This document shows positions 661-37,267 of a stretch of DNA of 64,000 bases, piece after piece. Position numbers and translations under genes: made by a program. The notes beneath the pieces were generated by a model. The model saw only the letters and a list, made by a program, of their open reading frames with translations, searched no databases and was not told the DNA's origin. This stretch comes from Burkholderia sp. BCC0506 (lineage in GTDB: Bacteria > Pseudomonadota > Gammaproteobacteria > Burkholderiales > Burkholderiaceae). Each line of letters starts with the position of its first letter. Position 1 is the first letter of the stretch. The stretch is from contig NZ_CADFEN010000002.1 in the NCBI RefSeq assembly GCF_902833145.1, forward strand, positions 496,001-560,000. The letters are read 5' to 3'.

Positions 661-1570
661 GCAAATGATGGTCGGCGCGCGAGGCGGCGCTTTCCTGCAG
701 CAGCGCGATCATCCGCTGCGCGAGCGGTGGCACGTATGCGCCCGCGCGATGCATCGCGCCGACGCGGCGGTCCAGCTCGAGTTCGCCGGCCCGCAGGTCG
801 AGCGCGCGCAGTCCGGACACTTGGCCGAGCGCGTCGGCGCCGCCGACGCACAGCAGCGACGTGCCGCGCAGCAACTGCAGCAGCGACGTGTTGCCGAAAT
901 CGGTCTCGACGCGCAGGCGCGGCGCCGGCAGCCCGCGCGCGCGGAACGCGTCGTCGATCCGGTGCCGCACCGGGATCGTCGTTTCCGGCAGCAGCCATTC
1001 CTGGTCGGCGAGATCCGCGAGCGTGAGCGCGCGCTTGCGCTGCAGCGGGTGGGCGGCGTCGGCGAGCACCGTGAGCCGGTCGTCGAACAGCACGATGGTG
1101 TCGAGCGCGAGGTCCGGCTGCTGCGGCTCGGGCGCCACGACCAGGTCGAGCTCGCCGGCCGCGAGCAGGTCGAGCAGCTCGCGGGCGAGCCGGCAGCGCA
1201 GCCGCAGCCGCGCGGCCGGCCGCTCGCGGATCAGTTGCCGGCACGCACCGAGCACGAACGCGTTCGGCACGGTCGGCGAGTAGCCGACCCGCACGACGCC
1301 CTGTTCGCCGCCGCGGATCGCGCGCATCTCCTGCAGCGCATCGTCGAATTCGAGCGCGATCCGCTGCGCGCGGGCGACGAAGCGCGCGCCGGCCGGCGTC
1401 GACGTCATCCCGTTCGCGGTGCGCTCGAACAGCGTCACGCCGACCTGCGTCTCCAGCCGCTGCACGGCCTTGGTCAGCGCGGGCTGCGACAGCCCCAGCG
1501 CGTCGGCGGCCTTGCCGATGCTGCCGTGCCGCTCCACGGCCAGCAGGTATTCCAGATCGCGGGTATCCAT
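653..1570 (-). CDS. LysR-family transcriptional regulator
   Basis: 305 residues, normal for the family. The N-terminal winged helix-turn-helix is clear (DLEYLLAVERHGSIGKAADA, then LSQPALTKAVQRLE, residues 1-60), followed by a substrate-binding-type effector domain from about residue 90. It is transcribed away from the acyl-CoA ligase cluster with about 100 bp between the two starts, the usual arrangement for a LysR activator controlling its divergent operon and itself. The inducer is probably the acid degraded by that cluster or its CoA ester; this is inferred from position. A terminator hairpin overlaps its stop codon. Confidence 0.93.
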   Translation of the reverse strand: MDTRDLEYLLAVERHGSIGKAADALGLSQPALTKAVQRLETQVGVTLFERTANGMTSTPAGARFVARAQRIALEFDDALQEMRAIRGGEQGVVRVGYSPTVPNAFVLGACRQLIRERPAARLRLRCRLARELLDLLAAGELDLVVAPEPQQPDLALDTIVLFDDRLTVLADAAHPLQRKRALTLADLADQEWLLPETTIPVRHRIDDAFRARGLPAPRLRVETDFGNTSLLQLLRGTSLLCVGGADALGQVSGLRALDLRAGELELDRRVGAMHRAGAYVPPLAQRMIALLQESAASRADHHLRE

Positions 1571-1670
1571 CAGGGATTCCTGTCGGTTATGACTTTATAT
1601 CCGGTAATGCATTGTGGTGATGCCTCGGCATCTTACAGACTGGCGGCACTGTTCGACCAGGAGAATCGTT
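1571..1670. promoter_or_regulatory. divergent LysR / acyl-CoA ligase control region
   Basis: This 100-bp divergent intergenic region contains an AT-rich imperfect palindrome around 1594-1605 (ATATCCGGTAAT), compatible with a LysR T-N11-A site. A Shine-Dalgarno GGAG at about 1660-1663 serves the TTG start at 1671. The operator assignment is inference from shape and position. Confidence 0.45.
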
Positions 1671-3224
1671 TTGAGCTTCGCCTACTTCCTGCGGCGCGCG
1701 GCCCGTTACTGGGGCAGCCAGCCCGCCGTGATCCACCGCGACCGCGCGGTCACGTATCGTCAGCTCGACGAACGTTCGACGCGCCTCGCGAACGCGCTGC
1801 GCGGCCTCGGCTTCGCGCGCGGCGAGCGCATCGCCGTGCAGGCGCGCAACTGCATCGAACTCGTCGAGATCGAGTGCGCGCTATACAAAGCCGGCCTCGT
1901 GAAGGCCGCGCTGAACCCGCGCTTCACGGCGGCCGAGGCCGCCGACGTCGTCGGCAACTGCACGCCCGTCGCGTTCATCGGCGGGCGCGGCTATACGGAC
2001 TACACGCCCGATTCGCCGGGCTTCGGCTCGGTCGAGCGGTTCGTGTCGCTCGACGGCGCGGCCACCGGCTATCTCGACTACGAAACGCTGCTCGCGAAGG
2101 GCAGCGATACGGCGCTCGACTACGTGCCGGCGGCCGACGACCTCGCGGTGCTGCACTTCTCGTCGGGCTCGACCGGGCGCATCAAGGCCGCGATGCAGAG
2201 CTACGGCAACCGGCTCGCGTCGCTGCGCAAGATCGTGCTCGGAATGGACCGTCCCGCGCAGCCCGGCGACCGGCTTGCGCTGATCGGACCGATCACGCAC
2301 GCGTCGGGGATGCTGATGCAGCCGTACCTGTTCTGCGGCGCGACGCTGGTGCTGTTCGATGCGTTCGAGCCCGCGCAATTCCTCGCCGAAGTCGCGCGCC
2401 AGCGCATCACGCACACCTTCATGGTGCCGGCGATGGTCAACATGCTGCTGAACACGCCGGCGCTCGCGCAGGCCGACCTGCGCAGCCTGAAGGTGCTCGG
2501 CTACGGCGCCGCGCCGATGGCGCCCGCGCGCATCGAGGAAGCGTGGGCGCGCATCGGCCCCGTGCTGTCGCAAGGCTATGGCGCGAGCGAATCGACGTCG
2601 GGCGTCACGCGGCTTGGGATCGCCGATCACGCGCATGCGCTGCTGCACGACCGCGAGCGGCTCGCATCGTGCGGCCGGCCGCTCGGTGAAACGGAAGTGC
2701 GCGTGGTCGATGCGGACGGCCGCGAAGTCGAAGGCGATGCGATCGGCGAGATCGTGATCCGCGGCGCGGACGTGTTCCACGGCTACTGGAACGCGCCGGA
2801 GCTCACGCGCGAGGTGCTGATCGACGGCTGGCTGCACACCGGCGACCTCGCGCGCACCGATCGCGAAGGCTTCATCTACCTCGTCGACCGCAAGCACGAC
2901 ATGATCATTTCCGGCGGCTTCAACGTGTATCCGACCGAAGTCGAGGCGGCGCTGTACCGGCACGACGACGTGCTCGAAGCGTGCGTCGTCGGCGTGCCCG
3001 ACGACAAGTGGGGCGAGGCCGTGAAGGCCGTCGTCGTGCTGCGTTCGGGCCGCGGCGCGCAGGCGGCCGAGCTCGTCGCGCACTGCCGCGCGCAGCTCGC
3101 CGACTACAAGGCGCCGCGCTCCGTCGATTTCGTCGCGGAACTGCCGAAGAACGCGAGCGGAAAGGTCGCCCGCAAGCTCGTGCGCGAGCCGTACTGGCGC
3201 GGCGTCACGCGTCGCGTCAACTGA
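1671..3224 (+). CDS. acyl-CoA synthetase (AMP-forming ligase)
   Basis: 517 residues of the ANL adenylating family. Visible motifs are the P-loop FSSGSTGRIKAAMQ near residue 163, GYGASEST near 301, HTGDLA near 388, GGFNVYPTEVE just after, and the C-terminal NASGK lysine near 498. It should activate a carboxylic acid to its acyl-CoA through an acyl-AMP intermediate. I chose TTG 1671 because GGAG lies 7 bp upstream and the ANL N-terminus (SFAYFLRRAARYWGSQPAVI) begins there; an upstream ATG at 1614 would add 19 residues lying in the promoter region. It is the first gene of the cluster, and the following dehydrogenase and CoA-transferase would act on its product. Substrate unknown. Confidence 0.9.
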   Translation: MSFAYFLRRAARYWGSQPAVIHRDRAVTYRQLDERSTRLANALRGLGFARGERIAVQARNCIELVEIECALYKAGLVKAALNPRFTAAEAADVVGNCTPVAFIGGRGYTDYTPDSPGFGSVERFVSLDGAATGYLDYETLLAKGSDTALDYVPAADDLAVLHFSSGSTGRIKAAMQSYGNRLASLRKIVLGMDRPAQPGDRLALIGPITHASGMLMQPYLFCGATLVLFDAFEPAQFLAEVARQRITHTFMVPAMVNMLLNTPALAQADLRSLKVLGYGAAPMAPARIEEAWARIGPVLSQGYGASESTSGVTRLGIADHAHALLHDRERLASCGRPLGETEVRVVDADGREVEGDAIGEIVIRGADVFHGYWNAPELTREVLIDGWLHTGDLARTDREGFIYLVDRKHDMIISGGFNVYPTEVEAALYRHDDVLEACVVGVPDDKWGEAVKAVVVLRSGRGAQAAELVAHCRAQLADYKAPRSVDFVAELPKNASGKVARKLVREPYWRGVTRRVN

Positions 3225-3235
3225 AGGAGCCCGCC

Positions 3236-4423
3236 ATGTTCGATCATCTGCAACGCCCCGAATTCGTCGCGCTGCGCGCGGCCGTCCAGCGCTTCGTCGA
3301 CGACGAGCTGCGCCCGATCGAGCGCGAGCTGGGGCTCGACTCGGAAGACGTGTGGCCGCGCGACGTGCTGCGCCGCGTGTGGCGACGCTCGGCCGCGCTC
3401 GGTTTCTATACCGCGAGCCTGCCCGTCGAGATCGGCGGCCAGGGGCTGTCGATCGCCGAGGTGTGCGCACTGAAGGCCGACCTGGCCGCGTGCGGCGCGG
3501 CGCTCGCGCCGCACGTGCTCGGCGAACTCGGCGGGCCGCCGCGCATCGGCAACATGCTGAAGTACGCGACGCCCGCGCAGCTCGACCGCTATTTCAAGCC
3601 GGTGATGCGCGGCGAGAAATCGACGTGCTTCGCGCTGACCGAGCCGCATTCGGGCTCGGACGCGATGAGCATCCGCACGACGGCGGTCGACGACGGCGAT
3701 TCGCTCGTCATCAACGGCACGAAGCACTACATCAGCGGTGCGCCGTTCGCCGATTTCGCGATCGTGATGTGCGTGACCGACGCGAACGCGACGCCGCCGC
3801 AGATCATGGCCGTGCTCGTCGATCTCGATCTGCCGGGCGTGAGCGTTCAGCACGAGTACGTGCCGATGTCGGGCCAGCACATCGACGCGGACATCCGCTT
3901 CGTCGACGTGCGCGTGCCGCGCGAGAACGTGTTCGGCGGCGTCGGCAACGGATTCAAGCTCGGCATGTCGCGTATCAGCGTGAACCGGCTGTTGCACTGC
4001 CCGACGATGCTCGGCCTCGCGATGTCCGCGTACCGGGCGGCGCTCGACTATGCACGCACGCGCCAGCAGTTCGGCGGCCCGATCGCGCGCTTCCAGGCGA
4101 TCCAGCACATGCTTGCCGACATGGCCGCCGCGCTGTGGGCGTGCGAGAGCATGATTGCGCACACCGCCGCGCTCGCCGACGCGGGCGCGGACCTGCGAAT
4201 GATGTCGTCCGCGTGCAAGCTGTACGTGTCGGAGCGCTGCTTCGAGATCGCGGACAAGGCCGTGCAGATCCACGGCAACGTCGGCGTGACGCGCGGTCAT
4301 CCGGTCGAGCAGACGTTCCGCAAGCTGCGGATGTTCCGCATCCTGACCGGCACGAGCGAGATCCAGCGCAACGCGATCGCGAAGGCGATTCTCGAACCGG
4401 CCCGCGCGGGGCGCGACGCATGA
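3236..4423 (+). CDS. acyl-CoA dehydrogenase family protein
   Basis: 395 residues, typical length. It has the FAD-binding ALTEPHSGSDA motif near residue 131, TRQQFG...FQAIQ, IHGNVGVTRGHPVEQ, and the C-terminal GTSEIQRN. ATG 3236 follows AAGGAG by 7 bp, 11 bp after the ligase stop. By alignment from memory, both usual positions of the catalytic glutamate look non-acidic: the residue before GTSEIQ (MCAD 376) is Thr, and the residue before RLL in helix G (isovaleryl-CoA dehydrogenase 254) is Asn. The true base, or an activity other than plain alpha,beta-dehydrogenation, is therefore open. Its stop overlaps the next start (ATGA), so the two are translationally coupled. Confidence 0.88.
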   Translation: MFDHLQRPEFVALRAAVQRFVDDELRPIERELGLDSEDVWPRDVLRRVWRRSAALGFYTASLPVEIGGQGLSIAEVCALKADLAACGAALAPHVLGELGGPPRIGNMLKYATPAQLDRYFKPVMRGEKSTCFALTEPHSGSDAMSIRTTAVDDGDSLVINGTKHYISGAPFADFAIVMCVTDANATPPQIMAVLVDLDLPGVSVQHEYVPMSGQHIDADIRFVDVRVPRENVFGGVGNGFKLGMSRISVNRLLHCPTMLGLAMSAYRAALDYARTRQQFGGPIARFQAIQHMLADMAAALWACESMIAHTAALADAGADLRMMSSACKLYVSERCFEIADKAVQIHGNVGVTRGHPVEQTFRKLRMFRILTGTSEIQRNAIAKAILEPARAGRDA

Positions 4424-5562
4424 CGGCCCGCGGCGCGCACGACGCGTGGCCCGCAGGCGACGACCACGCCCCCGCGTGGTCGTGCCTGCGCGGCGTGCGC
4501 ATCGTCGATGCCGGCCAGTTGCTGCCCGGCCCGCACGCGTGCGCGCTGCTGCGCCAGCTCGGCGCCGACGTGATCAAGGTCGAGCCGCCGGGCGGCGACG
4601 CGTTGCGGCAGTTCGGCGCCGACACGTTCGCGCAGTTCAACCGCGGCAAGCGCTCGGTCGTGCTCGACCTGAAGACGCCGGACGGGCGCGCGCGCTTTCT
4701 CGATCTCGTGCGCGACGCCGACGCGGTGGTCGAAGGCAACCGGCCCGGCGTGATGGCGCGGCTCGGGCTCGACTACGCGACGCTCGCCCGCACGAATCCG
4801 CGCATCGTGCTGTGCTCGATCACCGGCTACGGGCAGGACGGCCCGTATGCGAACCGCCCCGGCCACGACCTGAATTTTCTCGCCGAGGCCGGCTACTGGT
4901 CGGTGCCTGCGCAACTGCACGACACCGTCGCGCGTCCCCGCGTGCGGCTCGCCGACCATGCGGCCGCGATGCATGCCGCACTCGCGCTGGCCGTCGCCGT
5001 GATGAGCGCGCGTGCGAATGGGGTCGGCCAGCACCTCGACGTATCGATCCACGACGCGATCTTCGCGTGGACCGCGCCGGCCGCGTGGGCGCTGCACACC
5101 GGTCGCGATACACCCGACACCGCGCGCTGGGTGATGCCCGACAACGATCTGTTCGAAACCGCCGACGGCCGGCACATCGTGCTCGCGACGCTCGAGGACA
5201 AGTTCTGGGCCGTGTTCGCCGATGCGCTCGGCGATGCCTGCCCGGCGCTGCGCGAGCCGCGCTACGCGCAGCGCGCGGGCCGCCAGGAGCATCGGCATGC
5301 GCTCGGTGCGCAGTTGCGCGCGCTCTTCGCGACGCGCACGCAGGGCGACTGGATGCGCGTGCTCGGCGCGCTGGGACTGCCGGTGTCGCGCGTGCCCGAT
5401 GCCGGCGAGGTGTTCGACGATCCGCACGTGCGGGCTCGCGGCGTCGCGCGCGAGGTGGCGGCCGACCGCACGCTCGCGGTGCGCTTCCCGGTGAAGTTCT
5501 CGTTGGGTTTGCCGGACAGCGACGATCGCGTGCCGGCGCCCGGTGAGCCCGGCGGCGGATAG
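4420..5562 (+). CDS. CaiB/BaiF (family III) CoA-transferase
   Basis: 380 residues. The N-terminus GVRIVDAGQLLPGPHACALL, the LGADVIKVEPPGGD segment, and TGYGQDGPYANRPGHDLNFLA are all hallmarks of the formyl-CoA transferase / alpha-methylacyl-CoA racemase family; the Asp in PGHDLN is the expected catalytic aspartate. ATG 4420 overlaps the preceding stop. Beside a ligase and a dehydrogenase it most likely moves CoA between acids, or racemises a 2-methyl-branched acyl-CoA. Sequence alone does not separate those two roles. Confidence 0.9.
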   Translation: MTARGAHDAWPAGDDHAPAWSCLRGVRIVDAGQLLPGPHACALLRQLGADVIKVEPPGGDALRQFGADTFAQFNRGKRSVVLDLKTPDGRARFLDLVRDADAVVEGNRPGVMARLGLDYATLARTNPRIVLCSITGYGQDGPYANRPGHDLNFLAEAGYWSVPAQLHDTVARPRVRLADHAAAMHAALALAVAVMSARANGVGQHLDVSIHDAIFAWTAPAAWALHTGRDTPDTARWVMPDNDLFETADGRHIVLATLEDKFWAVFADALGDACPALREPRYAQRAGRQEHRHALGAQLRALFATRTQGDWMRVLGALGLPVSRVPDAGEVFDDPHVRARGVAREVAADRTLAVRFPVKFSLGLPDSDDRVPAPGEPGGG

Positions 5563-5606
5563 CACGACGCCGCCGACCGACCACGATAAGGAAACAGGAG
5601 ACAGCC

Positions 5607-6905
5607 ATGACGAATGGTGCGCAGTACCGCCCCGGACGGGCGTGGTCCATCGCGACGATGCTCGCGCTGATGATGCTGGTGAATTTTCTCGACAAGGTCG
5701 TGCTCGGCCTCGTGTCGGTGCCGATGATGCGCGACCTGCATCTGAGCCCGACGCAGTTCGGCGTGATCGGCGGCAGCCTCAACTGGCTGTTCGCGGTCGC
5801 GGCCGTCGCAGGCGGCATCGCCGCGAACCGCTGGCCCGCGAAATGGCTGCTGTTCGCGATGGCCGCCGCGTGGGCGCTGCTGCAACTGCCGATGCTGGTG
5901 GCCGGCTCGATCTGGGTCGTCGTCGCGTGCCGCGTGCTGCTCGGCATCGGCGAAGGCCCTGCGTCGCCGGTCGCGACGCACGCGATCTACAAGTGGTTTC
6001 CCGATACGCGGCGCAACCTGCCCGTCGCGCTGCTGCACCAGGGCAGCGCGCTCGGCCTGCTGATCGCGGGGCTGTCGATTCCGGTCATCACGACGCACTG
6101 GGGCTGGCGCGCGAACTTCGCGGTGCTCGCGCTGCTCGGGGCCGTGTGGTGTATCGCGTGGGCGGTGTTCGGCGAGGAGGGCACGCTGGCGCGGGCGCCG
6201 CGCGCGACGGGCGGCGAGCGGGTGCCGTACGGGCGGCTGCTGACCGACCGCACGGTGCTCGGCAACTTCCTCGGCCATTTCGCGGCGAACTGGATTCTCG
6301 CGATGACGCTCACGTGGATGCCGACCTACCTGCAGCTCGGGCTCGGCTTCGGGCCGCACGCGGCCGGCCGCATGTTCGCGCTGTTCGTCGCGGTCACGTC
6401 GCCACTCAGTCTCGCGCTCGCGTGGCTGTCGCAAGCGCTGCTCGCGCGCGGCATGCCGTCGCGGCATGGCCGCGGCACCTTCATCGCGGTCACGCTGGCG
6501 ATCGCCGGCGCGATGCTCGCCATGCTGCCGCTGCCCGAAGTGCCGCGCGCGGCGAAGCTCGTGCTGCTGACGCTCGGCAGCGGCCTGACGCTGACCATGT
6601 ACTCGATCGGCCCCGCGATGCTCGCCGAAGTGACGCCCGATGCGCAGCGCGGCGGCGTGCTCGCGCTCAGCAACGGCTTCGCGTCGCTCGCGGGGCTCGG
6701 CGCGCCGGTCGTCACGGGAATGCTGATCGAAGGCGCGGGCGCATCGGTCGCGCACGGCTTCGAACAGGCGAGCCTCGTATGCGGCGTCGTGCTGATCGCA
6801 TGCGGCGTGCTCGGCGCGTGGTGCCTCGATCCGCAGCGCTCGCTGCGGCGTCTGGCGGGCGAACCGGCGCGCGCGACGCCGCCGGTCGGCGCGTGCGGCC
6901 ACTAG
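5607..6905 (+). CDS. MFS transporter, anion:cation symporter type
   Basis: 432 residues with about twelve hydrophobic segments. The N-terminal half has the NFLDKVVLGLVSVPMMRDLH region and RVLLGIGEGPASPVATHAIY, typical of the ACS group that takes up organic acids such as phthalate, glucarate and hydroxyphenylacetate. A good Shine-Dalgarno (CAGGAG) precedes the ATG, and the gene follows the CoA-transferase by 44 bp. It probably imports the acid activated by the upstream ligase. Confidence 0.9.
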   Translation: MTNGAQYRPGRAWSIATMLALMMLVNFLDKVVLGLVSVPMMRDLHLSPTQFGVIGGSLNWLFAVAAVAGGIAANRWPAKWLLFAMAAAWALLQLPMLVAGSIWVVVACRVLLGIGEGPASPVATHAIYKWFPDTRRNLPVALLHQGSALGLLIAGLSIPVITTHWGWRANFAVLALLGAVWCIAWAVFGEEGTLARAPRATGGERVPYGRLLTDRTVLGNFLGHFAANWILAMTLTWMPTYLQLGLGFGPHAAGRMFALFVAVTSPLSLALAWLSQALLARGMPSRHGRGTFIAVTLAIAGAMLAMLPLPEVPRAAKLVLLTLGSGLTLTMYSIGPAMLAEVTPDAQRGGVLALSNGFASLAGLGAPVVTGMLIEGAGASVAHGFEQASLVCGVVLIACGVLGAWCLDPQRSLRRLAGEPARATPPVGACGH

Positions 6906-7014
6906 CACGGCGCGACACATCGTTTTCGGCGTGCGGCCCGCTTGCCGGGCGGCGGCGCCTTTCGACGGCAGGCAGTACCACGATACGCCGCGCGATGACG
7001 CGGCAGGAGGAGAC

Positions 7015-8073
7015 ATGAAGAAGATGATCGCGGCGACGCTGGCTGGCGCGCTTTGCGCGAGCGTGCATGCGCAGTCGAGCGTCACGCTGTTCGGCCGGAT
7101 CGGCGGCGGCGTGCGGTGGGTCAACGGGCTGCCGGGCGGCAGCCAGATCGGCTTCAACAACAACATCATCGCGGGCAACGAGTTCGGTATTCGCGGCAAG
7201 GAGGATCTCGGCGGCGGGCTGAGGGCGCTGTTCGTGCTCGACGGCGCATTCAACAGCGGCACCGGCGCGCTGAAGATGTCCGGCACGCTGTTTTCGCAGG
7301 CGGCGTATGTCGGGCTCGCCGGCGATTTCGGCCGTCTGACCCTCGGCCGTCAGTTCAACGTCGCGGAGGATCTCGGCATCGCGCTCGATCCGCTCGGCGG
7401 GCGCGGGCAGTCGCTCGCGGTCGAGCCGGGTGTGCTGTTCGACGGCAACTTCTTCACGCTCGACTCGCGTTTCAACAACACGATCAAGTATCTCGGGCAG
7501 GTGGGCGGCCTGCGCTTCGGCGCGAACTATTCGCCGGGTGGTGTCGCCGGCAGCTCGCATGCGGGCACCAGCTATTCGACGGCCGCGATGTACACGTATT
7601 CGGACCTGATGGGCGGCGTGTCGTACGCGAAGACGTACAGCCCGGACGGCTCGCAGTCGGCGCAGACGATCCAGGCGGGCGGCACGCTGCAGCTCGGTCG
7701 CGCGCGCTTCTACCTGAGCTACGCGTCGCTGAACGTGCGCGCGAACAAGGCCGGCGCGCCGTCGCGACGCGACGACATCCCGTCGTTCGGCGTCGTCGTG
7801 CAGCCGCTGCCGTCGCTGCAGCTGAGCGCAGCCGCGTTCTACGACCGCGCGCGCAATCTCGGCAACGTGCGGGGCGCGGACGGCCACAAGCTGACAACCT
7901 ACGCGATCGCCGAGTACTTCCTGTCGAAGCGCACGGAGCTGTATGTCGAAATCGACCGCAACGGGATGACGGGCGCATACATGCGCGACCCGGCGACCAT
8001 CGCGGCGCTGAACCTGCGACGCGGCGCGAGCGCGACGACCGGCGTGTCGATCGGGTTGATGACGCAGTTCTGA
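7015..8073 (+). CDS. general-porin family outer membrane protein
   Basis: 352 residues. The signal peptide MKKMIAATLAGALCASVHAQ is followed by SSVTLFGRIGGGVRWVN, the first strand of a Burkholderia 16-stranded porin; KEDLGGGLRALF, GRLTLGRQ and the C-terminal phenylalanine (GLMTQF) match the Gram-negative porin family. AGGAGG lies just upstream of the ATG. Its place behind the MFS gene suggests outer-membrane entry of the same substrate. Confidence 0.93.
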   Translation: MKKMIAATLAGALCASVHAQSSVTLFGRIGGGVRWVNGLPGGSQIGFNNNIIAGNEFGIRGKEDLGGGLRALFVLDGAFNSGTGALKMSGTLFSQAAYVGLAGDFGRLTLGRQFNVAEDLGIALDPLGGRGQSLAVEPGVLFDGNFFTLDSRFNNTIKYLGQVGGLRFGANYSPGGVAGSSHAGTSYSTAAMYTYSDLMGGVSYAKTYSPDGSQSAQTIQAGGTLQLGRARFYLSYASLNVRANKAGAPSRRDDIPSFGVVVQPLPSLQLSAAAFYDRARNLGNVRGADGHKLTTYAIAEYFLSKRTELYVEIDRNGMTGAYMRDPATIAALNLRRGASATTGVSIGLMTQF

Positions 8074-8112
8074 GCTGTTCCCTTCACCGTTTTCAAGGAG
8101 CGTGATCCGATC

Positions 8113-8520
8113 ATGCGTACTTCATCCAGATGGGTCGCGGGGCTGCTGACGGCAGCGTGCTGGACCGTCGCCGCCCACGCGCAATCCGATGCCGCGAGTG
8201 TGGCGGCTGCGTCGTCGTCGATTCCGGCGGCGCAGGAAGCCGCACAAGCACCCGCGGCATCACCGGCGTCGGCCGGCGTGCCGCCCGCGCAGCGCAACGC
8301 GGCCGACCGCAAGCTGAAGCGCCGCGTCAGCACCGCGCTTGCCCGCACGAAAAACTTGAACGCGACACGCATCCTGGTGCGGGTGCGCGACGGCGGCGTG
8401 ACGCTCGCCGGCTCGGTCACCGATACGGGCCAGGTGAATCTCGCGGCGGCGGTCGCGCGGCGCGTCGACGGCGTGACGTCGGTGTCGAACCAGTTGCGCA
8501 TCGACGGCCAGCAGCCGTGA
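8113..8520 (+). CDS. secreted BON-domain protein
   Basis: 135 residues with an N-terminal signal peptide (MRTSSRWVAGLLTAACWTVAAHAQ), an Ala/Pro-rich linker, and a C-terminal BON domain (residues about 65-133: LKRRVSTALAR..., VRVRDGGVTLAGSVTDTGQ, VDGVTSVSNQLRI). BON proteins usually sit in the periplasm or outer membrane and bind phospholipid. AAGGAG precedes the ATG, and it lies 39 bp behind the porin gene, so it is likely the last gene of that transcript. Confidence 0.88.
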   Translation: MRTSSRWVAGLLTAACWTVAAHAQSDAASVAAASSSIPAAQEAAQAPAASPASAGVPPAQRNAADRKLKRRVSTALARTKNLNATRILVRVRDGGVTLAGSVTDTGQVNLAAAVARRVDGVTSVSNQLRIDGQQP

Positions 8521-8618
8521 GGGTCGCGCGCGCTCGATGAGGGCTAAGCAACCCGGCCGCGCGCGGTCGCGGAGAAGCTGCCGTCACGCAACCGCGCGCA
8601 ACCGCGCGCCGTGCGCGC

Positions 8619-9665
8619 TTACCGCTCGATCTGCCGGTTCCAGCGCGTATCCCACTGCGCGCGACGCGCATTGATCGCGGCCCAGTCGACCACGGTCACC
8701 TTGCGCACCAGGTCCTCGACGTTGCCGAGGCTCTGCTGCATCGCGACGGGCATCTTCGCGAGGCGGTTGGTCGGGATCTGCTTGCCGGCCTCGGCCGCCT
8801 TCGTCTGCGCGGGCACGGACAGCAGGAACTGCGCGAGCTTCTGCGCCAGTTGCGGATCGGGATTGTTCGCGACCACGCACAGATCGACGAGCAGCAGCAC
8901 GGGGCCTTCCTTCGGGTTCGCATACGCGACGGGGATGCCCTTGTCCTGCAGGTCGCCCACCCCGGTCGGCGTGAGCGGGAACAGGCCGGCCTCGCCCGTC
9001 TGCACCATCTCGGAGATCTTCGCCGAATTCGGGATGTACTCGACGACGTTGGGCCCGACCGTGCTCGCCCACTTGCCGAAGCCGGGCTCGACGTTCTGTT
9101 CGTTGCCGCCGAGCAGCCGGTTGATCGCGAGGAAGCCGTGCAGCCCGAACGTGCTGCTCGACGCCGACTGGAACACGACCTTGCCCTTGTATTTCGGATC
9201 GGCGAAATCCATCCACGAGGTCGGCGGCGCCCAGCCTTTCTCCGCGAACAGCTTCTTGTTGTAGGCGATGCCGGTCATCCCGAGCTGCACGCCCGCGCCG
9301 ACGTCGTCCTTCATCCGCGCGAACGGGTACAGCTCCTTCAGCACCGGCGAATCGTCGAGTTTCTGGCATACGCCGAGGCTGACCGCGCGTGCCATCACGC
9401 CGTCGTCGAGGAACGCGACGTGGATCTGCGGCTTGTTGCGGTTCGCGAGCAGTTTCGCGAGCACGTCCGACGACGTGCCCGGAACGATCACGACTTTCAC
9501 GTTGTTCGCCTTCTCGAAGTCGGGCAGCACCTGGCTCGTATAGGCCTTTTCCATCGGGCCGCCGTTCATGCCGACGTAGATCGTCTTCGTTTGCGCGAAC
9601 GCGGGCGTGCCGACGCCTGCGATGCAGAGGGCGGCGGCCGCCGCGATCGTTCCGAGCAGTTTCAT
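8619..9665 (-). CDS. ABC transporter periplasmic substrate-binding protein (PotD/Fbp type)
   Basis: 348 residues: a signal peptide of about 25 residues (ending TPAFAQ), then a two-lobe binding-protein fold of the polyamine / iron / opine class (TKTIYVGMNGGPMEKAY at the mature N-terminus, GMTGIAYNKKLF, SWMDFADPKYKGKV). I chose ATG 9665 because the preceding gene stops there in an ATGA overlap and the signal peptide starts there. It is the last gene of the seven-gene minus-strand operon and should deliver substrate to the two permeases encoded upstream. Confidence 0.92.
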   Translation of the reverse strand: MKLLGTIAAAAALCIAGVGTPAFAQTKTIYVGMNGGPMEKAYTSQVLPDFEKANNVKVVIVPGTSSDVLAKLLANRNKPQIHVAFLDDGVMARAVSLGVCQKLDDSPVLKELYPFARMKDDVGAGVQLGMTGIAYNKKLFAEKGWAPPTSWMDFADPKYKGKVVFQSASSSTFGLHGFLAINRLLGGNEQNVEPGFGKWASTVGPNVVEYIPNSAKISEMVQTGEAGLFPLTPTGVGDLQDKGIPVAYANPKEGPVLLLVDLCVVANNPDPQLAQKLAQFLLSVPAQTKAAEAGKQIPTNRLAKMPVAMQQSLGNVEDLVRKVTVVDWAAINARRAQWDTRWNRQIER

Positions 9666-10813
9666 CAGTGGGGCTCCTCTTGACGGAAAGGGGCGGTCGG
9701 CGCGGCTTGGGGAAAGAAGCGGCCGATCGAGAATGCATCGAGTGGCGTGGCGGTTTCGCCCGCCGTGACGAGGTCGGCGAGCACGTCGCCGACGCCCGGC
9801 GCGAGCAGGAAACCGCCGCCGGAAAAACCGAACGCGTGCAGCAGATTCGGCGTGGTACGGCTCGCGCCGATGACCGGATTGTGGTCGGGCGTGCAGCCTT
9901 CGACGCCGCTCCACGTGCGGATCAGCAGCGCGTCGCGCAGCGCCGGCAGCAGCGCGCAGGCATCGCGCATCACCGCACGCGTCGTGTCGACCGACGGCTG
10001 GCCGAATTCACCGTCGCCGCGGCCGCGGCCGCCGCCGATCACGCAGTTGCCGCGCGCGACCTGCCGCGCATAGACGCCGCCGCCATACACGCCGAGGTTG
10101 TGCGTGATGAACGGCGGCAGCGGCTCGGTCACCCACATGTTCGGGTAGATCGGCTCCATCGGTACGGCTTCGCCGAAGCGTTCGGCGATCGTGTTCGCCC
10201 ATGCGCCGGCCGAGTTGATCAGCCACGTCGCGGTATGCGCGCGGCCGCCCGCGTGCCAGTGAAAGCGCGTGCCGTCGTGATGAATCTCGTCGACGGCGGT
10301 GTGCTCGAACACGTCCGCGCCCGCCGCGCGGGCCGCGCGTGCGAACGCGGGCGACACGATGCGCGGGTTCGCATGGCCGTCGGTTTCGCACAGCGAGCCG
10401 CCGAGCGCCGCGCGGCCGAGCCACGGGTAGCGGCGGCGGAACGCGTCGCCGCGCATGACCTGCAGCGGCAGGCCGTGTTCGGCGGCGAGCGCGGCGTACG
10501 CGTCGAGCGCATCGAGATCGGCATCGCTGCGCGCGAGCCGCAAGTGGCCCGAGACGACGAATTCGCCATCGATGCCGATCAGTTCGGGCAGCCGATCCCA
10601 GATGCGCCGTGCGCGCAGCGCGAGCGGCAGTTGCTCGGCCGGACGGCCCTGGCAGCGCACGCCGCCGTAGTTCACGCCGCTCGCCTGCGCGCCGCAGTCG
10701 CGCCGCTCGAACAGCCCGACGCGCAGCCCGCGCCGCGTCAGCGCGAGCGCGGCCGATGCGCCCACGAGGCCGCCGCCGACGATCGCGACGTCGTAATGGC
10801 GGATTTCACTCAT
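9665..10813 (-). CDS. DAO-family FAD oxidoreductase (HcnC / OoxB-like subunit)
   Basis: 382 residues. The N-terminal dinucleotide motif DVAIVGGGLVGASAALAL, the GVNYGGVRCQGR segment, and the C-terminal GWSGVEGCTPDHNP-like region (TWSGVEGCTPDHNPVIGAS) followed by HAFGFSGGGF mark the D-amino-acid oxidase / sarcosine oxidase family. With the next two upstream genes it forms the trio seen in hydrogen cyanide synthase HcnABC, opine oxidases and hydroxyproline dehydrogenases. In those enzymes this subunit oxidises the C-N bond. Substrate is unknown here. Confidence 0.9.
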   Translation of the reverse strand: MSEIRHYDVAIVGGGLVGASAALALTRRGLRVGLFERRDCGAQASGVNYGGVRCQGRPAEQLPLALRARRIWDRLPELIGIDGEFVVSGHLRLARSDADLDALDAYAALAAEHGLPLQVMRGDAFRRRYPWLGRAALGGSLCETDGHANPRIVSPAFARAARAAGADVFEHTAVDEIHHDGTRFHWHAGGRAHTATWLINSAGAWANTIAERFGEAVPMEPIYPNMWVTEPLPPFITHNLGVYGGGVYARQVARGNCVIGGGRGRGDGEFGQPSVDTTRAVMRDACALLPALRDALLIRTWSGVEGCTPDHNPVIGASRTTPNLLHAFGFSGGGFLLAPGVGDVLADLVTAGETATPLDAFSIGRFFPQAAPTAPFRQEEPH

Positions 10814-32383: not shown

Positions 32384-33178
32384 ATGGTGCAAGCATCTCC
32401 GCGCCCGGCGTTGAGCGGTCCGACGCTCGTCCGGCTGCTCGCGCGCCTGGCCGATGCCGACGTCGCGGAATCCCGGCAGACGCTGTCCGACCGGCTGAGC
32501 CAGTGGCTCGGCTGGACCGACGCGATCACGTTGTCGTCCGCGCTGAATGCGAGCGCGCCGAGCGTCACGGCCGGCGTGCGCGGCTACGACGCCGAGCGCG
32601 ACTGCGCGCGCGTGCGCCACGACCTCGCGCAGGCGATCGCGGCCACCCGCCGGCCGCCGGCGCGGCGCCGGCCGGGCGAGTTGCCGCCGCCGGCCGCCGA
32701 CACGGCCGATTTCGCGGACTTCCGCCAGCGTTATCTGACCCTGCAGCAGGACATGGAAACGGCGATCGGCCAGTTGCGCGGCCGCCTGCGGGTCGCGCTC
32801 GCCGCGCGCTCGTCCGCGATGGCGCGGCTCGCGACGCTCGACGCGATCATGGAGCGCGTGCTCGGCGCGCGCGAGCGCAGCCTGCTGTCGGCCGTGCCCG
32901 GGCTGCTCGGCACGCGCTTCGCGCGGCTGCGCGAAGCGGAGCGGCAGGCGCTGGCCGATGCCGAATCCGCGGCCGCGGCCGACGCGGCGCCCGACGCCAC
33001 CGACGCGCCGGCTCCGGCCGATGAAAGCCCGGTGGCCGACACCCCGACTGTCGCGGCGATCGTGCCCGGCACATGGCTCGATACGTTTCGCGACGAAATG
33101 CAAAGCATCCTGCTTGCCGAACTCGAAGTCCGGTTTCAAACGGTAGACGGGCTGCTCGCGGCCCTTCGCACCTGCTAA
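32384..33178 (+). CDS. DUF3348 protein (ZorF-like candidate)
   Basis: 264 residues. The N-terminal segment SGPTLVRLLARLADADVAES...LSQWLGWTDAITLS and the coiled-coil-rich middle (DFRQRYLTLQQDMETAIGQLRGRLR) match DUF3348. No catalytic motif is visible. It is the first of four tightly spaced genes, with 10 bp to the DUF802 gene. From memory, DUF3348 is the family named ZorF in the type III Zorya antiphage system, found with ZorA, ZorB and a DUF2894 protein, exactly the set here. Function otherwise unknown. Confidence 0.82.
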   Translation: MVQASPRPALSGPTLVRLLARLADADVAESRQTLSDRLSQWLGWTDAITLSSALNASAPSVTAGVRGYDAERDCARVRHDLAQAIAATRRPPARRRPGELPPPAADTADFADFRQRYLTLQQDMETAIGQLRGRLRVALAARSSAMARLATLDAIMERVLGARERSLLSAVPGLLGTRFARLREAERQALADAESAAAADAAPDATDAPAPADESPVADTPTVAAIVPGTWLDTFRDEMQSILLAELEVRFQTVDGLLAALRTC

Positions 33179-33188
33179 TCAACACGCT

Positions 33189-35996
33189 ATGTCCAGAATT
33201 CGTCTTGATCTCGTTGTCTTCGTCGCCGGTCTGCTCGCTGTGGGCTGGATCGGTGCCGGCTATGTCGCGTCGAACCCGCTGGCGGCGGCCGTCACGCTGC
33301 TGATCGGCGCGTGCTACGTCGCCGGCGCCTGGGAGCTGCTGCGCTACCGGCAGGCGACCGCCACGCTGTCGCACGCGCTTGCCGGCCTGACCGAGCCGCC
33401 CGCGAAGCTCGACACGTGGCTCGACACGCTGCATCCGGGCCTGCGCGGCGCGGTGCGCGCACGGGTCGAAGGCGCGCGCGTCGCGCTGCCGGGCCCGGCG
33501 CTCACGCCTTACCTCGTCGGCCTGCTGGTGCTGCTCGGCATGCTCGGCACGCTGCTCGGGATGGTCGTCACGCTGAAGGGCACGGGCGCCGCGCTCGAGA
33601 GCGCGACCGATCTCGATGCGATCCGCGCGTCGCTGATCGCGCCGGTGAAGGGGCTCGGGTTCGCGTTCGGCACGTCGATCGCCGGTGTGGCGACATCCGC
33701 GATGCTCGGGCTGCTGTCCGCGCTCGTGCGCCGCGAGCGGATCGACGCGGCCCAGCAGCTCGACGCGAAGATCGCGACGACGCTGCGCGTGTATTCGTCC
33801 GCGCACCAGCGCGACGAATCGTTCCGGCTGCTGCAGCGCCAGGCCGACGTGATGCCGGCGCTGGTCGACCGGCTGCAGACGATGATGACGACGCTCGAGG
33901 CGCGCAGCGTGGCGTTGCACGATCGCCAGCTCGAAAGCCAGCAGGCGTTTTTCGACCGGACCGAGCGGGCGTATGCGGGCCTCGCGTCGAACGTCGGCGA
34001 TGCGCTGAAGGAAAGCGCCGCCGAAAGCGCGCGCGTGGCCGGCGCCGCGTTGCAGCCGGTCGTCGCCGCGACGATGAGCGGGCTCGCGCAGGAAATGGCC
34101 GCGCTGCGCGACACCGTGACGGGCGCGGTGCAGCGTCAGCTCGACGGGCTGACCGAAGGCTTCGAGAAGACCACCGGCAACGTGACGGCCGTGTGGAACC
34201 GCGCGATCGACGAACAACGTCAGGCGGGTAGCGCCGTCGCGCAGCAGTTGCAGACGACGCTCGGCCAGTTCACCGAGACGTTCGCGCGGCGTTCGTCGGA
34301 TCTGCTCGACGGCGTCGCGACGCGCCTCGAATCGACCGAAGGCCGCCTGTCGGATGCATGGCGCGATGCGCTGGCGCGCCAGGAGCAGGTCGGCGAGACG
34401 CTGGCCGGCCAGCACGCGCGCGCGCTGGGCGAAGCCGCCGCGACGTTCGAGCGCCATTCGGCCGCGACGCTTGCCGCGATGCGCGAGTCGCACGCGGGTT
34501 TGCAGACGCAACTGGCCGCACGCGATGAAGAACGTCTCGCTGCGTGGAACGATTCGCTCGCCGCGATGGCCGCGAAGCTCGGCGAAGAATGGCAGCGCGC
34601 GGGCGTGCATAGCGCGGGCCGTCAGCAGGAAATCTGCGACGCCCTCGCGCAAACGACGCGCGATCTCACGGCACAGGCCGCGACGTTCGAACAACGCTCG
34701 AACGATCTGCTGTCGACCATTCGCGAGTCGCACACGGGCTTGCAATCGCAACTGGCCGCGCGCGACGAAGAACGTCTCGCTGCGTGGAACGAGTCGCTGG
34801 CCGCGATGGCGGCGAAGCTCGGGGAAGAATGGCAGCGTGCGGGCGTGCATAGCGCGGGCCGTCAGCAGGAAATCTGCGACGCACTCGCACGAACGACGCG
34901 CGACCTCGCCGCACAGGCGTCGACGTTCGAACAACGCTCGACCGATCTGCTGTCGACGATTCGCGAGTCGCACACGGGCCTGCAATCGCAACTGGCCGCG
35001 CGCGACGAACAACGTCTCGCTGCGTGGAACGAGTCGCTGGCCGCGATGGCCGAGAAGCTCGGCGAAGAATGGCAGCGCGCAGGCGTGCATAGCGCCGGCC
35101 GTCAGCAGGAAATCTGCGATGCACTCGCACGAACGACGCGCGACCTCGCCGCACAGGCGTCGACGTTCGAACAACGCTCGACCGATCTGCTGGCGACGAT
35201 CCGCGAGTCGCACGCCGGCCTGCAATCGCAACTGGCCGCACGCGACGAGGCCCGCCTGTCCGCCTGGAGCGAGTCGCTCGCCGCGATGGCGGCCGCGCTG
35301 CGCGACGAATGGGCGCAGACGAGCGCACAAGCCGCGGCGCGCCAGCAGGACATCTGCGACGCGCTGACCCGCACCGCGAACGACATCACCGCGCAGGCGC
35401 AGGCCCACGCGAGCGATACCATCAACGAAATCGCGCGTCTCGTGCAGGCCGCGTCGGAGGCGCCGAAGGCCGCGGCCGACGTCGTCGCCGAGCTGCGCCA
35501 GCGCCTGTCCGACAGCATGGTGCGCGACACCGCGATGCTCGAGGAACGCAGCCGCCTGCTCGCGACGCTGGAGACGCTGCTCGGCGCGGTCAACCACGCG
35601 TCGACCGAACAGCGCGCCGCGATCGACGCGCTCGTCAGCACGTCGGCCGATCTGCTCGATCGCGTCGGCGCGCGCTTCAACGACACCGTCGATGCCGAAA
35701 CGCGCAAGCTCGATTCGGTGACCGCGCAGGTCACGGCCGGCGCCGTCGAAGTGGCGAGCCTCGGCGACGCGTTCGGGACGGCCGTGCAGGTGTTCGGCGA
35801 ATCGAACGACAAGTTGCTGACGCATCTGCAGCGCATCGAGGCCGCGCTCGAGAAATCGCTCGCGCGCAGCGACGAGCAGCTCGAGTACTACGTCGCGCAG
35901 GCGCGCGAGGTGATCGACCTGAGCGTGATGTCGCAGAAGCAGATCGTCGAAGACCTGCAGCAGCTCGCCGGCCGGCGGGCGCCCGTCGGAGCGTAA
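33189..35996 (+). CDS. DUF802 membrane protein, MotA/ZorA-like stator with long repeat tail
   Basis: 935 residues. Hydrophobic segments lie at about 8-28, 31-48, 106-128 and 155-180. The last two, PYLVGLLVLLGMLGTLLGMV and VKGLGFAFGTSIAGVATSAM, match the paired core helices of MotA/TolQ/ZorA proteins. After residue 181 comes a cytoplasmic tail of about 750 residues, predicted as coiled coil, including four 80-residue repeats (about 432-751). MotA and TolQ lack such a tail; ZorA has one that extends into the cell. It would form the pentameric proton channel with the MotB-like protein encoded 3 bp downstream. Assignment to Zorya is by gene set and layout. Confidence 0.85.
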   Translation: MSRIRLDLVVFVAGLLAVGWIGAGYVASNPLAAAVTLLIGACYVAGAWELLRYRQATATLSHALAGLTEPPAKLDTWLDTLHPGLRGAVRARVEGARVALPGPALTPYLVGLLVLLGMLGTLLGMVVTLKGTGAALESATDLDAIRASLIAPVKGLGFAFGTSIAGVATSAMLGLLSALVRRERIDAAQQLDAKIATTLRVYSSAHQRDESFRLLQRQADVMPALVDRLQTMMTTLEARSVALHDRQLESQQAFFDRTERAYAGLASNVGDALKESAAESARVAGAALQPVVAATMSGLAQEMAALRDTVTGAVQRQLDGLTEGFEKTTGNVTAVWNRAIDEQRQAGSAVAQQLQTTLGQFTETFARRSSDLLDGVATRLESTEGRLSDAWRDALARQEQVGETLAGQHARALGEAAATFERHSAATLAAMRESHAGLQTQLAARDEERLAAWNDSLAAMAAKLGEEWQRAGVHSAGRQQEICDALAQTTRDLTAQAATFEQRSNDLLSTIRESHTGLQSQLAARDEERLAAWNESLAAMAAKLGEEWQRAGVHSAGRQQEICDALARTTRDLAAQASTFEQRSTDLLSTIRESHTGLQSQLAARDEQRLAAWNESLAAMAEKLGEEWQRAGVHSAGRQQEICDALARTTRDLAAQASTFEQRSTDLLATIRESHAGLQSQLAARDEARLSAWSESLAAMAAALRDEWAQTSAQAAARQQDICDALTRTANDITAQAQAHASDTINEIARLVQAASEAPKAAADVVAELRQRLSDSMVRDTAMLEERSRLLATLETLLGAVNHASTEQRAAIDALVSTSADLLDRVGARFNDTVDAETRKLDSVTAQVTAGAVEVASLGDAFGTAVQVFGESNDKLLTHLQRIEAALEKSLARSDEQLEYYVAQAREVIDLSVMSQKQIVEDLQQLAGRRAPVGA
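34482..35441 (+). repeat. four tandem 240-bp repeats inside the DUF802 gene
   Basis: Units at 34482-34721, 34722-34961, 34962-35201 and a diverged 35202-35441 each encode 80 residues starting RESH(A/T)GLQ. Units 2 and 3 are almost identical in DNA, including at synonymous sites, which points to recent duplication or gene conversion. The length keeps the frame, so recombination between units would change tail length in 80-residue steps. Confidence 0.92.
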
Positions 35997-35999
35997 CGC

Positions 36000-36644
36000 A
36001 TGCACGACGAAATCGACGGCGGCGCGCAATCGGCGCCGGTGTGGCCCGCGTTCGCCGACCTGATGTCGGTGCTGCTCGGCGCGTTCGTGCTGATCCTCGT
36101 CGGCGTGATCGGCATGCAGCTTCAGCTCACGTCGAAGCTCGAGGAAGCGGTGCGTGCGCGCCAGCTCGAGGCGCAGCAGCGCAAGTCGCTCGAACAGGCG
36201 CTCGCCGGGCCGCTCGCGGCCGGCCGCGTGACGCTCGTGAACGGGCGCATCGGCATCAGCGGCAACGTGCTGTTCGCGCTGAACTCCGACCAGTTGCAGC
36301 CCGCGGGCCGCGACCTGCTGAAGACGCTGGCCGGCCCGCTGGCCACGTACCTGAAGACGCGCGACGAAATCCTGATGGTCAGCGGCTTCGCGGACGACCA
36401 GCAGGTGCACGCCGGCAACCGCCTGTTCGCGGACAACTGGGAACTGTCGGCCAAGCGCGCGCTGACGGTCACGCGCGCGCTGATCGACGCCGGCGTGCCG
36501 CCCGCGTCGGTGTTCGCGGCGGCGTTCGGCTCCGAACAGCCGGTCAGCTCGAATGCGGACGATGAAGGCCGCGCGAAGAATCGCCGCGTGGAGATCGCGC
36601 CGGTGCCGCGCAAATCGGCGTCGAACGGAGGGAAGGCAAAGTGA
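36000..36644 (+). CDS. OmpA/MotB-family stator partner (ZorB-like)
   Basis: 214 residues. A single N-terminal membrane helix holds the MotB-type acidic residue: WPAFADLMSVLLGAFVLIL, with Asp20 equivalent to the proton-carrying Asp of MotB and ZorB. A short linker leads to an OmpA-like peptidoglycan-binding domain (LFALNSDQLQPAGRDLL, LSAKRALTVTRALIDAG, GRAKNRRVEI). Start and stop are locked to the neighbours (3 bp after the DUF802 stop; GTGA overlap with the DUF2894 start). With the DUF802 protein it should make an ion-driven stator anchored to the cell wall. Confidence 0.88.
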   Translation: MHDEIDGGAQSAPVWPAFADLMSVLLGAFVLILVGVIGMQLQLTSKLEEAVRARQLEAQQRKSLEQALAGPLAAGRVTLVNGRIGISGNVLFALNSDQLQPAGRDLLKTLAGPLATYLKTRDEILMVSGFADDQQVHAGNRLFADNWELSAKRALTVTRALIDAGVPPASVFAAAFGSEQPVSSNADDEGRAKNRRVEIAPVPRKSASNGGKAK

Positions 36645-37267
36645 CGGGCGATGCGACGCAGGTGCGCGCGACGCTCGACGCATGGCGCGAGCAGGGCGCG
36701 GACCGGCTCGATCCCGTGCGGTTTCACCGGATCGACGCGCTCGCGCGCCGCGCGGCCGTGCTCGACGGCGCGGCACGTGCGCTGCTCGACGCGCGGCTGG
36801 CGGCGTTGATCGAAGGGTTTGCGCAGACCGTCGCACGCGCCGATGACGCCGCAGCGACGCGCGAGACGGCGCAAGCCGCCGCGCCTGTGCCCGCGCGCGG
36901 CGCGCTTGCCGCGCTCGTCGAAGGGCTCGGCCGCGATGCGCAGGCCGACCGGCGCGGGCTCGATCCCGAACTGGTCGACTACTTCCGCGCGACGTGGTCG
37001 AAAGTCCGTACGGAACAGCAATACCGCCAGTCGCTCGACCAAGTGCCGCGCAACGCGGGGCCGCTCAATTCGAACAGCCTCGTGCACCGCTCGCTTGCAA
37101 CGATGCGCGAGCTGTCGCCGGACTATCTGCAGCAGTTCCTGTCGTACGTCGATGCGCTCGCATGGCTCGAGGATCTCGCCGGCGGCGGCGCGCAGCCCGA
37201 GAAGGAAGCGCCGCGCGCGAAGGCGGCCAAGCCGGCGAGAAAGACGACGCGCGCCAAGGCGCGATAA
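36641..37267 (+). CDS. DUF2894 protein (ZorG-like candidate)
   Basis: 208 residues from GTG 36641, which overlaps the OmpA-like stop. The core LVDYFRATWSKVRTEQQYRQSLDQVP...GPLNSNSLVHRSLATMRELSPDYLQQFLSYVDALAWLE is the DUF2894 signature; the C-terminus is Lys/Arg/Ala-rich (KAAKPARKTTRAKAR), suggesting nucleic-acid contact. No nuclease motif is visible. From memory this family is ZorG of type III Zorya. The effector role within this set is unestablished. Confidence 0.82.
   Translation: MTGDATQVRATLDAWREQGADRLDPVRFHRIDALARRAAVLDGAARALLDARLAALIEGFAQTVARADDAAATRETAQAAAPVPARGALAALVEGLGRDAQADRRGLDPELVDYFRATWSKVRTEQQYRQSLDQVPRNAGPLNSNSLVHRSLATMRELSPDYLQQFLSYVDALAWLEDLAGGGAQPEKEAPRAKAAKPARKTTRAKAR

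Follow-up and report, generated by a model that had tools for sequence, protein, structure and literature searches.

A complete type III Zorya operon, apparently a near-core resident of Burkholderia, and the variable rod of its ZorA protein

For Zorya systems of types I and II the ZorA5:ZorB2 stator has been solved, and the accessible part of that report states that ion flow, cell-wall binding and the tail are all required, and proposes that the rod recruits ZorCD or ZorE (Mariano 2025). Type III is the only one of the three Zorya types with no visible nuclease; its protection against phage has been shown. The type III operon of Stenotrophomonas nitritireducens lowers plaquing in E. coli for at least one phage, and the available text of the same study proposes the DUF3348 and DUF2894 proteins as regulators of ZorAB and describes a patchy genus-level distribution for its systems as a group (Payne 2021, PMC8565338). 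For a single species, Ralstonia solanacearum, near-core presence of type III Zorya has been published, according to the accessible part of that paper (PMC13064858).

Here we describe a type III operon in a 64,000-nucleotide stretch of Burkholderia DNA (the window, in what follows). The system itself is known; new here are its near-core status in the genus, the finding that no fifth gene family is as widely common at its loci, and the repeat pattern of the ZorA rod. A literature search with incomplete coverage of subscription journals returned no paper on genus-wide fixation in Burkholderia, and no structure or phage assay of a type III operon from that genus; literature searches with the same incomplete coverage, which did not name the repeats, returned no paper on repeats in the ZorA rod.

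The operon and its assignment to type III Zorya

The window contains the following features:

32384-33178, plus strand: DUF3348 protein (ZorF of Payne 2021; ZorG3 in PADLOC-DB 2.0), 264 aa, predicted all-helical
33189-35996, plus strand: ZorA3 (DUF802), 935 aa, a MotA/ExbB-like core followed by a cytoplasmic rod of ~750 residues
34477-35290, plus strand: tandem array within the ZorA rod, 240-bp (80-aa) unit, 3.4 copies, 91% matches
36000-36644, plus strand: ZorB3 (OmpA), 214 aa, a single membrane helix with Asp20 and an OmpA-type peptidoglycan-binding domain
36641-37267, plus strand: DUF2894 protein (ZorG of Payne 2021; ZorF3 in PADLOC-DB 2.0), 208 aa, GTG start, predicted helical

An earlier note on this DNA had described these genes as a four-gene operon with junctions of 10 bp, 3 bp and an overlap, and this description was borne out: the DUF3348 gene and zorA are separated by 10 bp, zorA and zorB by 3 bp, and zorB overlaps the DUF2894 gene by 4 bp. 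Its reading of the products held as well. Both helices quoted as the paired MotA/TolQ core are present in the DUF802 protein, ~750 aa follow the last ZorA core helix, and the claimed Asp20 of ZorB lies in WPAFADLMSVLLGAF, together with a peptidoglycan-binding domain (Pfam OmpA, E 1.2e-18). The remaining Pfam matches were to DUF3348 (6.7e-86), DUF802 (4e-24) and DUF2894 (2e-58). The note had proposed type III Zorya, and the best PADLOC models of all four proteins were indeed those of type III, at E 4e-82 or better (DUF3348 protein, 6.3e-95; ZorA3, up to 1497 bits; ZorB3, 6.2e-114; DUF2894 protein, 4e-82), the best matches to types I and II being far weaker (2e-14 for ZorA, 8.2e-16 for ZorB). 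A lack of any ZorA or ZorB profile match, which the note had named as telling against its proposal, was looked for with PADLOC, and the strong ZorA3 and ZorB3 matches were obtained instead. Its identification of DUF3348 with ZorF and DUF2894 with ZorG agrees with the naming in the accessible text of Payne 2021 (PMC8565338); the PADLOC-DB 2.0 labels are reversed relative to that paper.

As read from their sequence, the four genes are a complete type III Zorya operon. The zorAB pair is flanked by a DUF3348 gene and a DUF2894 gene, ZorA combines a MotA/ExbB-type core with a long cytoplasmic tail, ZorB combines a membrane Asp helix with an OmpA/MotB peptidoglycan-binding domain, and no ZorC, ZorD or ZorE lies alongside (0 PADLOC matches at 1e-5 in 10 neighbouring proteins). 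Types I and II were rejected as assignments because neither ZorC with ZorD nor a ZorE effector was found (PADLOC and Pfam for the four proteins, PADLOC for the neighbours). An origin by chance or artefact was also ruled out, since all four genes are supported by profiles (PADLOC, Pfam) and occur in identical order in 51 of 58 fetched regions. The seven remaining regions comprise one with partial evidence (three operon genes by BLAST and a DUF3348 match by profile; L138), three with a weak DUF3348 match and no operon (L132, L133 and L141) and three type I controls (L142-L144). The spacing between the DUF3348 gene and zorA is 10 bp in 66 of 75 loci, and that between zorA and zorB is -4, +3 or +5 bp in 73 of 75. 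On the minus strand, a 1329-aa open frame (32847-36836) lies opposite zorA and its neighbours; it is probably not a gene but a shadow frame in GC-rich sequence.

The residues T121, T128, F160, G161, T162 and S163 of the ZorA core were invariant in 17 aligned rows from seven family codes, and Asp20 of ZorB in 16 rows, likewise from seven family codes. Compared with chains of solved structures, the ZorB profile matched 8vvn_B over residues 9-209 and 8qyd_F over residues 9-200, the latter belonging to what we take to be a ZorAB structure entry; many MotB, Pal and OmpA domains outscored both chains against this profile, over the C-terminal domain. The ZorA core profile matched 8vvn_C at 3.4e-5, its sole match at E up to 0.01, and 8VVN is given as a type I ZorAB entry in the accessible part of Mariano 2025.

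The operon shares all four components, and the gene set around zorAB, with the type III system of Payne 2021. That operon comes from Stenotrophomonas nitritireducens, whereas the one in the window has an array of 80-aa repeats in its ZorA rod and is a near-core set. Type I Zorya is alike in its MotA-like ZorA with a long tail and its MotB-like ZorB, but it has ZorC and the helicase-nuclease ZorD where the window has DUF3348 and DUF2894. The MotAB, TolQR and ExbBD stators resemble the operon in the OmpA domain and Asp helix of ZorB and in the membrane core of ZorA; unlike them, it has a long cytoplasmic rod and two extra operon partners, and no flagellar or Ton/Tol genes were found by Pfam among the neighbours scanned.

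Neither partner had a relative of solved structure by sequence with E under 0.04. The AlphaFold2 model of the DUF3348 protein is all-helical and of good confidence (pLDDT 86, pTM 0.79); that of the DUF2894 protein is helical and of lower confidence (pLDDT 71, pTM 0.43), with a basic C-terminus modelled at low confidence. The earlier note had seen no nuclease or helicase effector, and no such profile (PADLOC, Pfam) matched any of the four proteins. A hidden fifth gene was sought by clustering flanking and operon open reading frames of 110 aa or more that passed a GC-by-codon filter. Across 112 loci, the four families present over 20-24 genus labels were the four operon genes (some labels are group codes and may name the same genus), and no fifth family was as widely common. 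The next cluster, represented by a frame opposite the DUF3348 gene, covered 34 loci and 10 genus labels, and the one after it, a LysR regulator, 22 loci and 6 genus labels. Scans of the first members of other clusters yielded a second LysR, a porin and two frames with no Pfam match.

Distribution, inheritance and genomic setting

In a sample of one genome per species, ZorB was detected at E 1e-60 in 64 of 65 genus genomes, the sole miss being a 480-contig assembly of 94% completeness, and DUF2894 in 63 of 65. The window's own genome also contains a complete type I Zorya (ZorA1, ZorB1, ZorC1 and ZorD1; L142, G000:C3:229157-247157, at 1911-10103 on the minus strand) in an 18-kb low-GC stretch (59% GC), and its ZorA family was found in at least 3 of 65 genus genomes at 1e-10, a lower bound since none exceeded the family cut-off. 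Because ZorB and DUF2894 are so common in comparison with this family, type III Zorya looks like a near-core resident of the genus, not a swappable defence set. The patchy presence that is a usual sign of anti-phage genes was not observed for ZorB. Within this one genome, type III Zorya looks like the resident and type I Zorya the traveller.

In the family, DUF3348 was detected in 279 of 398 genomes and in 11 of 25 genera; 119 genomes were negative, and the 20 of these that were listed span 0.2-6.4 Mb and include many small genomes. Further out, raw profile matches fell to 8 of 200 genomes in the order, 7 of 274 in the class and 7 of 200 in the phylum, with the window's own genome counted in each. 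Three of these matches, weak ones to DUF3348 in G410, G540 and G950, came without an adjacent operon and were not counted as members. In Corynebacterium glutamicum, an unrelated control genome, the DUF2894 profile scores above the cut-off. No relatives were found in viral contigs, and phage records gave one match, to an OmpA domain only. Matches at 1e-40 occurred in 27 of 72,556 plasmid records. Of the 27, 7 are predicted mobilizable, and each of the 20 that were listed is a replicon of 0.59-3.5 Mb. On three large Caballeronia plasmids (0.59-0.75 Mb; L269, L270 and L271), the operon directly follows the araGH arabinose transporter genes and has identical downstream neighbours. In the soil relative Paraburkholderia xenovorans LB400 (L188), all four frames are open.

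Distances between operons correlated with RpoB distances, with a Spearman coefficient of 0.82 over 38 genomes, 0.62 within the family (28 genomes) and 0.74 within the genus (13 genomes), and in none of the three sets were any of 2000 permutations as high; 2 of 40 genomes were left out of the RpoB tree for want of an rpoB match. In quick trees of the operon, the genus as one clade was rejected at p-AU 0.0056 and Burkholderiales as one clade at p-AU 0.0003, and therefore transfers between genera and families have happened; the former value rules out strict vertical descent for the genus as a whole. Median dN/dS was 0.128 for zorA, 0.129 for zorB, 0.298 for the DUF3348 gene and 0.254 for the DUF2894 gene (12 comparisons each), and the operon is clearly under purifying selection. 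Two neighbouring genes had medians of 0.34 and 0.18 (10 comparisons each), so the operon is not in every part more constrained than ordinary nearby genes.

The neighbours had been called ordinary in the earlier note, and they proved to be so. None of 10 neighbouring proteins had a PADLOC match that would be the sign of a defence island, and the Pfam matches of 10 neighbours are to metabolic, transport and regulatory genes, including an AMP-binding/reductase enzyme, LysR, a pyridine nucleotide-disulphide oxidoreductase, a LysE transporter and an FMN reductase; two of the 10 had no Pfam match. The GC content of the operon is inside the range of the window, and in all nine near-complete genus genomes compared the operon is on a contig other than that of rpoB. 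Universal syntenic presence, which the note had held to count against a defence role if joined by the lack of a phage phenotype, was found in part: the operon is near-universal in the genus genomes searched, but at least one of six tested flanking genes was common to only 14 of 20 genus regions, with none in the other 6, and none of 20 regions of other family members had any of them. As for the phage phenotype, a homologous operon does show one in E. coli (Payne 2021). The reservation in the note that the role might be a housekeeping one gains weight from the near-universal presence.

Length variation in the ZorA rod

ZorA ranges from 693 to 1155 aa among 75 proteins from named records, a set from which two Paraburkholderia tropica sequences whose frames stop early had been dropped, and from 560 to 1220 aa in a further set of regions. 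This variation is unlike types I and II, within each of which component size is stated to be well conserved in the accessible text of Mariano 2025. In 17 of the 75 proteins ZorA has a base length of 693-700 aa and no strong repeat. Burkholderia proteins form a length series of 775, 855, 935 and 1015 aa, with a step of 80, and those of Paraburkholderia and relatives a series of ~698, 785, 872, 959 and 1046 aa, with a step of 87; the steps in other lineages are 51, 58, 62, 69, 98 or 113 residues. No change in rod length was seen at the strain level in the few chromid records compared (812 aa in 3 of 3 records of P. caribensis and in 2 of 2 of P. largidicola).

The distinct lengths of repeat unit that a rule picked out (22, 29, 33, 51, 62, 69, 80, 87, 98, 113 and 145) each fall within 0.11 turn of a whole number of helical turns at 3.632 residues per turn. 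None of 20,000 random sets was as good, a result whose strength is overstated since the test treats the lengths as independent and they are partly related through a 29-residue step. The hydrophobicity of the rod peaks at 3.61 residues per turn in the 17 base-length proteins and at 3.65 in ZorA of the window (local peaks, 3.58-3.72), a periodicity that fits an uninterrupted helical rod. Conservation among the base-length proteins is 0.90-0.97 at core positions 91-180, lowest in mid-rod (0.69-0.79 at positions 331-480) and high again towards the end (0.83-0.93 at positions 481-690). On these alignments, ZorA conserves its motor and its tip, and the intervening spacer changes by in-frame repeats near whole helical turns. 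The repeats provide a ready natural series of length variants with which the function of the ZorA tail can be asked.

The Pfam family DUF802 spans 53 positions and may represent the repeat intrinsic to the rod. At a lag of 55 residues (5 x 11), the 17 base-length proteins match themselves weakly, with identities of 0.28-0.46. In the two P. tropica loci (L173 and L181), the zorA frame stops 762 and 1092 bp short of zorB, which may reflect a broken gene or an assembly error in the repeats.

Possible modes of action

The reading that we favour, and hold to be reasonably probable, is that this complete type III Zorya operon is a resident of the genus, at or close to fixation, and would act as a wall-anchored, ion-driven stator signalling along its rod to two helical partners. 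The rejected genus clade and the 6 of 20 genus regions without the tested neighbours tell against strict fixation. By analogy with the type I and II complexes, ZorA and ZorB would be assembled in the inner membrane as an ion-driven stator that ZorB tethers to peptidoglycan. Phage entry would disturb the wall and open the channel, ZorA would turn against the tethered ZorB, and the motion would travel down the long rod, again on the model of types I and II. The conserved C-terminal ~210 residues of the rod are a putative docking site for the DUF3348 and DUF2894 proteins, which may gate or transmit the signal in place of ZorC, ZorD or ZorE, and the phage might finally be stopped by a borrowed nuclease or by the ion flow itself. 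As the four-gene operon suffices in E. coli, the effect must come either from these proteins, for example through a local flow of ions, or from some host factor that very different bacteria have in common.

It is possible, if somewhat unlikely, that DUF3348 and DUF2894 are adaptors without effector activity that draw a resident nuclease of the host to the activated rod, in which case type III would operate as types I and II do but with a borrowed nuclease; this is a special case of the favoured reading, and the probabilities of the two do not add up. The four proteins without a nuclease or helicase profile and the loci without an equally widespread fifth family are consistent with it, as is the recruitment of ZorCD or ZorE by the rod proposed for types I and II (Mariano 2025, accessible part). 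However, the Stenotrophomonas operon works in E. coli (Payne 2021, available text), so that the borrowed factor must be common to both, and no candidate was found in this analysis. Less likely still, and more speculative, is a quasi-housekeeping, wall-sensing motor of Burkholderiaceae, a permanent first line that would double as, or have grown from, an envelope machine. Its rod length would be set by lineage through whole-turn duplications in mid-rod, with the motor and tip fixed, and the rod would be an adjustable spacer placing DUF3348 and DUF2894 at a set depth.

We consider it quite unlikely that the operon is a housekeeping one, a MotAB/TolQR-like stator with a normal task in maintaining the wall or envelope that affects phage in E. 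coli as a side effect of being expressed in a foreign host. The presence of ZorB and DUF2894 in nearly all genus genomes searched, which is unusual for defence genes, argues for such a role, and so do the flanking genes common to 14 of 20 genus regions, the neighbours free of PADLOC matches, the GC content like that of the rest of the window, the purifying selection and the location away from the rpoB contig. Against it stand the protection of E. coli from at least one phage by the Stenotrophomonas operon (PMC8565338, available text), the fact that, by PADLOC profile, ZorA and ZorB are closest to defence proteins, the uneven distribution over 11 of 25 genera of the family and the transfers seen in the operon tree. 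Those transfers would suit ordinary mobile defence genes that are merely common in sequenced Burkholderia, as would the scattered families outside Burkholderiaceae that have the operon, the tested neighbours absent from 6 of 20 genus regions and from all 20 of other family members, and the 7 matching plasmid records predicted mobilizable. With one genome per species, however, ZorB is still found in 64 of 65, viral contigs hold no relatives and phage records the single OmpA-domain match, the matching plasmid records are few, with large replicons throughout the 20 listed, and operon distances track RpoB (Spearman 0.82), which makes this explanation very improbable.

With a near-fixed type III and a patchy type I system, one genome offers a natural comparison of a resident version of one machine with a travelling one. 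Among the type I control loci, the one at G007:C1 (L144, about 966-10103) looks interrupted: it has plus-strand frames, no ~240-aa minus-strand frame lies between its ZorA and ZorC frames (among open reading frames of 170 aa or more), and its ZorD stretch is split.
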